Origin: Candidatus Buchananbacteria bacterium
GTDB taxonomy: Bacteria; Patescibacteriota; Patescibacteriia; Buchananbacterales; UBA6539
NCBI GenBank assembly: GCA_016930315.1
Contig: JAFGGX010000035.1
Coordinates: forward strand, 1 to 43,443
Length of the DNA stretch: 43,443 nt
Reading direction: 5' to 3'
The stretch's first letter is position 1. The number at the start of each line of letters is the position of its first letter. This document shows, in pieces, positions 30,796 through 35,797 of this stretch. The position numbers and the translations under genes are program-made. The notes under the pieces were generated by a model. It saw only the letters and a list, made by a program, of their open reading frames with translations. It had not been told where the DNA came from and searched no databases.

Positions 30796-30858
30796 TTTTT
30801 TAATTGACAAAACTAAAATTTTATAATAAACTAGCAAATTAGTTCTTTTAATTTATAT

Positions 30859-30906
30859 AGCCATAGCCAAAAGCCACTCAAATGTGGGTAGTTTTTGGCT
30901 ATGGCT
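30859..30906 (+). promoter_or_regulatory. Leader hairpin of the 31005 gene
   Basis: AGCCATAGCCAAAAGCCACTCAAATGTGGGTAGTTTTTGGCTATGGCT. Confidence 0.7.
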
Positions 30907-31004
30907 AGGCTATTTAAGTTAGCCCTCTGGCAAAATCTAATTTTTTGTCGATTCGGAGCGAGGCTATAGGCCTGGGCAATGAGGAGACAAAAGGAGCAAG
31001 CGTC

Positions 31005-31685
31005 ATGAGTAAGAAAAATGAAGTGCCATTGAATTGGGTAGGTCTTGGTAAGATTGCGGCCGTTTTTGTTAGGCTGTTTACGATTATCAAGGAGACGTGG
31101 TCTGAAATGGGTATCGGCCTGGAAATCATCGGTTGGGTTACCGCTGAAGGCAAGGATAAGTTCGTCGAGGAATTTCTCAAACCTCTTGGCCAACAGTTCC
31201 TCGCCGCTCAGCGCATCATCGTGGTAAACAAAAATACCATCCTTGTCAATCTTGATGCTCCGCCGATCCTGCCGTTTGACGGCGCAACAGTGGAAACCAA
31301 CAAGGGAGGCGGCTGGGTTACGGTACAGAAGCGCGCTGATGGCCTATACGTTGACGATCGTAAAGTCATTTTGTACCGATCCGAACGTCAAAATGGTGGT
31401 AAGGCTATCAGAGGTTACGAACTTCGCGACGAAGTGATGAACCTGCCAGTGTTGCATCCCAACGTCATGAATGGACTCTACGAACACAGCCACCTCATTC
31501 CCGAGGATTGGAAACAAAACGAAGTCAGATTCATCTACTTCTGGGCTGTTACATTCCGCGGCTTGCGCGGCGACTTGTACGTTCACTACCTATTCTGGTG
31601 CGGCGGCAGTTGGACATGGGATTGCTACTCTATTGGCCTCAGTTTCAAAGGCGACTACTCGGCTGCTGTTCTCGAAAGTAACTAA
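31005..31685 (+). CDS. Orphan protein, paralog of the 19333-20088 product
   Basis: ATG 31005 with AAAGGAGCAAGCGTC leader; MSKKNEVPLNWVGLGKIAAVFVRLFTIIKETWSEMG...VNLDAPPILPF...HLIPEDWK. Confidence 0.78.
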   Translation: MSKKNEVPLNWVGLGKIAAVFVRLFTIIKETWSEMGIGLEIIGWVTAEGKDKFVEEFLKPLGQQFLAAQRIIVVNKNTILVNLDAPPILPFDGATVETNKGGGWVTVQKRADGLYVDDRKVILYRSERQNGGKAIRGYELRDEVMNLPVLHPNVMNGLYEHSHLIPEDWKQNEVRFIYFWAVTFRGLRGDLYVHYLFWCGGSWTWDCYSIGLSFKGDYSAAVLESN

Positions 31686-33836: not shown

Positions 33837-34799
33837 ATGACAGAAAAAATTTATAATTTAATAATTATTGGTTCCGGGCCGGCCGGTTACACGGCAGCAA
33901 TTTATGCGGCTCGCGCTGATCTCGCCCCGTTGATGATCGAAGGAGTTAATCGCGGGGGAGTGGCCGGTGGTCAATTGATGTGGACTACTGAAGTGGAAAA
34001 TTTTCCAGGTTTTCCGGAAGGAATTCAAGGACCGGAGTTGATGGAATTGATGAAAAAACAATCAGTGAGGTTTGGAACAGAAATTATTAGTGAAGATGTG
34101 GTGAAAGTTGATTTTTCTAGTCAGCCATTAAAAATGGAAACGGGGGATGGAAAAACTTATTTAGCTCACTCGGTAATTATTGCCACCGGCTCTTCGGCTA
34201 AGTGGTTAGGCCTGGAATCGGAAAATAAGCTGAAAGGTTTTGGCGTTTCGGCTTGTGCAACTTGTGATGGCGCTTTTTTTCGCGATAAAAAAGTGGTGAT
34301 TGTTGGCGGTGGCGATGCGGCGATGGAAGAAGCCAATTTTTTAACTAAGTTTGCTAAAGAAGTAACGGTGTTGGTACGTAAGGGGGAAGTGGAAGTTAAG
34401 GCTTCATCGATTATGTATCAACGGGCTAAGAAAAATCCAAAGATTAAATTTTTATATAATATCGAAGTGGTTGATATCGCTGATCCGGCTCAAAAAAAAG
34501 TTACTAGCGTGACATTAAAAAATAACATTGATAATACTACTAGCGAGTTTCCGACCGAAGGGGTTTTTGTGGCCATCGGCCATCGGCCAAATACCGAGGT
34601 TTTTGCCGGGCAATTGAATTTAGATCGAGTTGGTTATATTGAAATTAAAGATGGTCATAAAACTAATGTTGAAGGGGTTTTTGCCGCCGGTGATGTTCAC
34701 GATTATTTTTATCGGCAAGCTATTACCGCGGCTGGGGCTGGTTGCCAAGCGGCTTTGGAGGCTCAACGTTTCTTAGCGGAAAAAGAACATCAAGGTTAG
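33837..34799 (+). CDS. trxB: Thioredoxin-disulfide reductase
   Basis: GSGPAGYTAAIYAARA, CATCDGAFF, FAAGDVHD. Confidence 0.97.
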   Translation: MTEKIYNLIIIGSGPAGYTAAIYAARADLAPLMIEGVNRGGVAGGQLMWTTEVENFPGFPEGIQGPELMELMKKQSVRFGTEIISEDVVKVDFSSQPLKMETGDGKTYLAHSVIIATGSSAKWLGLESENKLKGFGVSACATCDGAFFRDKKVVIVGGGDAAMEEANFLTKFAKEVTVLVRKGEVEVKASSIMYQRAKKNPKIKFLYNIEVVDIADPAQKKVTSVTLKNNIDNTTSEFPTEGVFVAIGHRPNTEVFAGQLNLDRVGYIEIKDGHKTNVEGVFAAGDVHDYFYRQAITAAGAGCQAALEAQRFLAEKEHQG

Positions 34800-34822
34800 C
34801 TTAAATTTAAGATAAAAAGGAA

Positions 34823-34853
34823 ATAACCCTGAAATTTTGGGGTTATTTTTTTT
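34823..34853 (+). terminator. Intrinsic terminator after trxB
   Basis: AATAACCCTGAAATTTTGGGGTTATTTTTTTT. Confidence 0.9.
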
Positions 34854-34860
34854 GTTAGTC

Positions 34861-34889
34861 TTGACAAGTTTTTAGTTTGGTGTTATTGT
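34861..34889 (+). promoter_or_regulatory. Sigma70-like promoter of the ncRNA candidate
   Basis: TTGACA-17-TATTGT. Confidence 0.75.
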
Positions 34890-34895
34890 GTCTTG

Positions 34896-35131
34896 ACTAC
34901 TGAGAGCTGTGGGTGAAGCGATTGCTTACGGCTCTCGGTCCTAGGTAAACTCACAAACCTCGCGTGAGTACCATTGAATCGTTAAGTTTTCTGAAAAAAG
35001 AAATCTCGAAGGGCCGTGCGGTCGGCTGAATTTTTCCTTCGAGATTTGACGAGACTGGACGATTCATTCCCGTCGGATTCAATCATTTTATGCTTCGGCG
35101 TAATTAATGACTTGATTCCGGCGGGTTTTTT
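34896..35131 (+). ncRNA. Structured ncRNA candidate (~235 nt), class not recognised
   Basis: Hairpins 34902-34936 and 34949-34969; 12-bp hairpin 35001-35047 enclosed by GAATCGT(34976)/ACGATTC(35059); long UUCG-capped terminator 35069-35125 + T tract. Confidence 0.65.
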
Positions 35132-35182
35132 CTTTAGAATAAAATCAGTTTTAAGAAATCCATTTTTTGAGGTTCAAAATTT

Positions 35183-35797
35183 ATGTTTTATCCAAACAAA
35201 AGTCAGGAAAAAAGGTTGGTTAAAAAAGGTTTCCAATTAATTGCTGGCATTGACGAAGCCGGCCGCGGCGCCTGGGCTGGGCCAATTGTGGCCGCGGCCG
35301 TGATTATGCCGCTTGATAATAAAATTAAAGGCATTAAAGATTCAAAGTTGTTGCGTTTGCCGGAAAGAAAAAGTCTTTATAAAAAAATTACCGAAAGTGC
35401 ACTGGCTTGGGGCGTTGGCATTGTCGATTATGACGTGATTGATAAAGACGGTTTAACTCGGGCGAATTTTTTGGCGATGGAGTTGGCTGTTAAAAGTATC
35501 AAGCCATTGCCTGATTATTTATTAATTGACGGCCGAAATTTAAAAATTGCTGATTTATCCTCGAGTGGCATTATTGATGGTGACTACAAAGTTTTTTCAA
35601 TTGCGGCTGCGTCGATTGTGGCTAAAGTCACCCGTGACAATTTGATGGATGAGCTGGACGAAAAATATCCGGCTTATGGTTTTAAACAACACAAAGGTTA
35701 TGGTACTAATCAGCATTTTCAAATGTTGATGCAATATGGGGTTTCGAAAATTCATCGGCGCAGTTATAAGCCGATTAAAGATTTGTTGGAAGGGTAG
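35183..35797 (+). CDS. rnhB: Ribonuclease HII
   Basis: IAGIDEAGRGAWAGPIVAAAVIM. Confidence 0.95.
   Translation: MFYPNKSQEKRLVKKGFQLIAGIDEAGRGAWAGPIVAAAVIMPLDNKIKGIKDSKLLRLPERKSLYKKITESALAWGVGIVDYDVIDKDGLTRANFLAMELAVKSIKPLPDYLLIDGRNLKIADLSSSGIIDGDYKVFSIAAASIVAKVTRDNLMDELDEKYPAYGFKQHKGYGTNQHFQMLMQYGVSKIHRRSYKPIKDLLEG

Follow-up and report, generated by a model that had tools for sequence, protein, structure and literature searches.

A candidate autonomous small-RNA gene between trxB-like and rnhB genes of a Buchananbacteria-type patescibacterium

Organization of the region between trxB and rnhB

The host genome of 897 kb (53 contigs, GC 38.5%, 98.8% complete) belongs to a Buchananbacteria-type patescibacterium, and the window analyzed here is a stretch of 43,443 nucleotides. 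In this stretch a trxB-like gene and rnhB lie on the same strand, and between them are a promoter and four consecutive hairpins, designated H1 to H4 (Table 1). A terminator hairpin trailing trxB sets this gene apart from what follows. The promoter that the sequence-only reading had placed behind this terminator was read directly; it is of the sigma-70 type, matches the consensus at 10 of 12 positions, has a TG upstream of the -10 element and obtained the top score in a local scan. A genome-wide count gave 126 sites with TTGACA and a good -10 element in 1.79 Mb, i.e. about one per 14 kb of strand, and such a promoter is therefore expected within 100 nt of the structure by chance in about 1% of cases. 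The UUCG-capped terminator of about 57 nt with its T run, noted in the same reading, is also present as H4, 52 nt ahead of the rnhB start codon. No credible ORF was found at the locus, in agreement with the earlier reading; a 74-codon GTG frame that enters rnhB has no Pfam match.

Table 1 Features of the region between the trxB-like gene and rnhB (positions are those of the window)
Feature	Positions	Strand	Remarks
trxB-like gene	33837..34799	+	Upstream neighbour; Pyr_redox_2, CATC motif
trxB-trailing terminator hairpin	34816..34853	+	Terminator scan
Promoter of candidate RNA gene	34861..34889	+	TTGACA-17-TATTGT, extended -10 TG; sequence read and local scan
Candidate RNA gene	34896..35132	+	About 236 nt; promoter, terminator, fold z -7.84
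Hairpin H1	34899..34939	+	18 bp; -25.0 kcal/mol, z -6.6
Hairpin H2	34944..34974	+	Loop AAACCTCGC at 34955-34963; -9.5 kcal/mol, z -4.2
Hairpin H3	34975..35065	+	-33.6 kcal/mol, z -3.7
Hairpin H4, intrinsic terminator	35069..35131	+	UUCG-capped, then TTTTTTCTTT; hairpin proper 35069-35125 (57 nt), T run to 35131; -29.8 kcal/mol, z -7.0
Possible weak rnhB promoter	35112..35140	+	TTGATT-17-TAGAAT, 9/12, overlaps H4; consensus match only
rnhB (RNase HII)	35183..35797	+	Downstream neighbour; own GAGG Shine-Dalgarno

The fold of positions 34890-35135 was calculated at -101.5 kcal/mol, and none of 200 shuffled sequences was equally stable, whereas the complementary strand folds far more weakly (-74.2 kcal/mol, z -4.96). 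What had been described as four nested or tandem stems and a terminator is seen as the hairpins H1 to H4, each of which, taken alone, is equalled or surpassed in stability by no more than one of 500 shuffles. The outer stem of H3 is GAATCGT/ACGATTC; its inner stem, AAATCTCGAAGG/CCTTCGAGATTT, is interrupted by an internal loop and a bulge. In simulated stepwise folding each hairpin adopts its final form upon synthesis, and the sole rearrangement, around H3, is transient. Accessibility is predicted for the loops of H1 and H2, the latter being AAACCUCGC, and for three stretches of H3. An excess of G-U over A-C within helices (17 to 7, p 0.03) takes in flanking noise and was set aside.

Standing in the genome, known RNA families and conservation

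When the 156 intergenic regions with lengths of 235-1200 nt are ranked, the locus comes 7th in energy and 8th in shuffle z, beside RNase P (-96.6 kcal/mol, z -6.8; ranks 8 and 13, respectively) and tRNA clusters; these ranks are approximate, since the underlying gene calls are simple ORF calls. Several further intergenic regions, some of them repeated palindromes, match the locus in fold strength, and strong structure is thus not peculiar to it. Structured RNAs tend to sit in long, GC-rich intergenic regions, which is an established heuristic (PMC8632094). The GC content of the locus (45.9%) is indeed above that of the genome and of the median intergenic region (34.9%), as the sequence-only reading had stated for a GC-rich element in an AT-rich background, but only mildly so: by best GC window it comes 53rd of 155 intergenic regions, so that the argument rests on energy and strand asymmetry.

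A search with Rfam models, at gathering and at relaxed thresholds, placed no family on the RNA region, and nearly all weak matches at relaxed thresholds fell on the trxB terminator; the candidate thus stays outside known families. The absence of tmRNA, RNase P or SRP hallmarks, also noted earlier, was borne out in that the locus matched neither tmRNA, be it by a tRNA-like domain and tag frame or by the model, nor the model of RNase P RNA (RF00010), and the genome carries its tmRNA on contig 23 (9128-9520) and its RNase P RNA on contig 6 (12438-12867). As nothing in the whole order, the host genome included, matched the models of 6S RNA (RF00013) and small SRP RNA (RF00169), a highly diverged version of one of these housekeeping RNAs might be sought here, which we regard as very improbable indeed. 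Although 6S RNA is likewise an autonomous RNA of about 200 nt, the one long hairpin that characterizes it, with a bubble at its centre resembling an open promoter, is missing at this locus, which has four tandem hairpins instead, and 6S identity was rejected accordingly; so was SRP identity, as a scan for the GGAA...AGCA motif of domain IV does not place SRP RNA here. Moreover, a diverged housekeeping RNA would be expected in relatives, from which this RNA is absent, and a better-conserved structured candidate is present on contig 23 (L065).

The latter candidate (30960-31125, + strand) is closed by a long stem and matches no Rfam family convincingly; a homolog with 71% identity occurs in a further genus of its family (L129). 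It makes a better case than the present locus for an unrecognized conserved RNA, and is perhaps 6S-like. A probable T-box leader with the motif AGGGTGGCACCGCGG lies on the - strand of contig 41 (L083; 5458-5790); its match of 35 bits (E 4e-6) is below the Rfam gathering score.

No relative of the RNA was detected in the other 12 genomes of the order (a sample of 13 including the host, each of a different genus) by blastn or by a single-sequence covariance model, and blastn against 56 relatives gave short, mostly low-complexity matches only. In samples of the class and of the phylum (384 genomes each) the covariance model recovered the locus itself only, with non-self scores of at most 13.6 bits vs. 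285.8 bits for self. Matches of up to 14.1 bits to the unfiltered model at rnhB loci of relatives were to hairpin-rich DNA on either strand and were judged non-homologous. Phages gave no match to the locus, and plasmids a single 27-nt match inside a Pantoea gene; in viral contigs a 16-mer was matched three times, a chance-level number, and the covariance model found nothing strong at these three loci. Lack of conservation, which the sequence-only reading had named as an argument against an RNA gene, was thus encountered in every genome searched, all of them outside the host's genus. Because the compared genomes all come from other genera, the absent homologs are weak evidence against function.

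The surroundings of rnhB differ between the host and its relatives. A gene for a protein of 65-70 aa, matching no Pfam family, lies beside rnhB on the opposite strand in 8 of the 12 other genomes of the order (L035-L042); it was not found in the host genome, where the RNA occupies its slot before rnhB. This suggests that the host lineage gained the RNA and lost the divergent small-protein gene. In some relatives a TrxB-like gene lies beyond the small gene, also upstream of rnhB, which speaks against a misassembly. In line with a patescibacterial host, the RnhB sequences of the contig collection that are nearest to its own come from a MAG labelled "Patescibacteria group bacterium" and a Candidatus Buchananbacteria MAG.

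Several other elements of the genome were observed in the course of the analysis. The palindrome TGTTCCACGTGGAACA occurs in four copies inside a 2-kb part of the window (30780, 31766, 32168 and 32671) and nowhere else in the approximately 897 kb read; it resembles the ParB-binding parS site, and the cluster suggests a centromere-like, possibly origin-proximal region. A recurring leader, in which a boxA-like GTTCTTT(T)AA is followed by a long near-perfect hairpin, is found at 30805-30910 of the window, with copies on the + strand of contigs 20 (L062; 491) and 40 (L082; 7266) and on the - strand of contigs 16 (L058; 13455) and 21 (L063; 11123); those copies inspected by eye have a TTGACA-type promoter upstream. 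Finally, the intergenic regions L055 2761 and L082 48991 have palindromic segments such as CCGACCCTTTATGGGTCGG in common and appear to belong to a family of dispersed repeats.

Alternative explanations and possible mode of action

The locus may be explained as a stand-alone RNA gene, as a leader of rnhB or as palindromic DNA of no function. Hairpin-rich intergenic stretches are common in the host genome and in its relatives, and the locus is unconserved, as would fit a non-functional or mobile insertion, rich in hairpins, that came to lie behind a chance promoter-like site. We nevertheless consider such an origin unlikely. The locus has no second copy in the genome beyond partial matches of 15-19 nt and, being single copy, is not a dispersed palindromic repeat; its fold is strand-asymmetric, whereas the palindromic regions on contig 34 (L076; 24324) and contig 18 (L060; 1380) fold equally on both strands; and a canonical promoter and a terminator are situated exactly at the ends of the structure.

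The sequence-only reading had left open whether the element is a trans-acting sRNA or an attenuator for rnhB. In the latter case H4 would stop most transcription from the promoter at 34861, and a factor or ligand would permit read-through into rnhB; in a variant, the H2 loop could mask the rnhB Shine-Dalgarno sequence within the read-through RNA. The layout is that of attenuating leaders such as the T-box, in which a structured region and an intrinsic terminator lie just upstream of a gene on the same strand. There is also an 8-bp pairing that the 5' arms of H3, AUUGAAUC, and of the terminator, GAUUCAAU, could form; the resulting antiterminator fold is only 1.6 kcal/mol from the best one as long as the 3' arm of the terminator does not yet exist. 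Once the terminator is complete, however, this fold falls behind by 21 kcal/mol, so that a regulated attenuator would need an added factor and is disfavoured; no other antiterminator was found. Likewise, the calculated pairing of -8.6 kcal/mol between the H2 loop and the rnhB Shine-Dalgarno sequence, which the variant would exploit, is unexceptional, the rnhB start ranking 47th among 819 approximate translation starts. The possible promoter overlapping H4 may serve rnhB separately, and no conserved counterpart of the RNA precedes rnhB in relatives, contrary to the synteny that had been proposed as a check. Differing in these respects, and in the lack of a family match, from leaders of the T-box type, the locus is in our view unlikely to be an rnhB attenuator.

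With its own promoter and an intrinsic terminator around a non-coding structure, the locus has what is looked for in a stand-alone sRNA gene, and it resembles trans-acting sRNAs further in its intergenic position and its several stem-loops. An exposed C-rich loop, a feature of some Gram-positive sRNAs, is likewise found in the candidate: the H2 loop AAACCTCGC is complementary to Shine-Dalgarno sequences of the GAGG type, including that of rnhB. Trans action was nevertheless left unsupported by the search for targets, as 111 of 300 shuffled loops pair as well as the H2 loop with the 819 starts, which is the level of chance. An endonuclease-IV-like gene has a perfect 9-nt complement to the loop where its start was called, but this start call is doubtful. 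The candidate also differs from trans-acting sRNAs in having no conserved seed and unusually little single-stranded RNA, and in its genome, where no match to Hfq (PF17209) was detected in spite of the 98.8% completeness.

Since promoter and terminators bracket the structure, the fold is strand-asymmetric, and neither an Rfam match nor a coding signal was found, we interpret the locus as probably an autonomous, lineage-restricted, Hfq-independent small-RNA gene of this Buchananbacteria-type patescibacterium. The claim of an autonomous RNA gene can thus be upheld as far as signals, fold and novelty are concerned, but it gained nothing from conservation, and the functions proposed with it were unsupported. 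According to the model suggested by these features, the housekeeping RNA polymerase would begin near 34896, as the position of the promoter implies, the nascent RNA would fold stepwise into four independent hairpins, and the RNA would be let go at the H4 terminator near 35132 as a stable species of about 236 nt, apart from the trxB and rnhB mRNAs. Because the body of the RNA is almost fully paired, it must act via few exposed stretches, presumably the loop of H2, AAACCUCGC, and, in H3, the internal, apical and bulge loops. Provided that the locus is an RNA gene, the mechanism we favour, as a tentative possibility, is Hfq-independent regulation in which the CCUC loop of H2 contacts Shine-Dalgarno regions, that of rnhB possibly among them; protein binding is the main alternative. 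It appears quite improbable that the candidate stands for a new RNA class, rigid and paired along nearly its entire length, with a regulatory or protein-binding role, born in one patescibacterial lineage in the slot before rnhB.

The regulatory RNAs of Patescibacteria are little described, and no survey of them was found in the literature collection searched. As a single, unconserved locus of a familiar kind, the candidate alters no general picture; being cleanly bounded, it gives RNA-seq studies of enrichment cultures a defined locus to look for.
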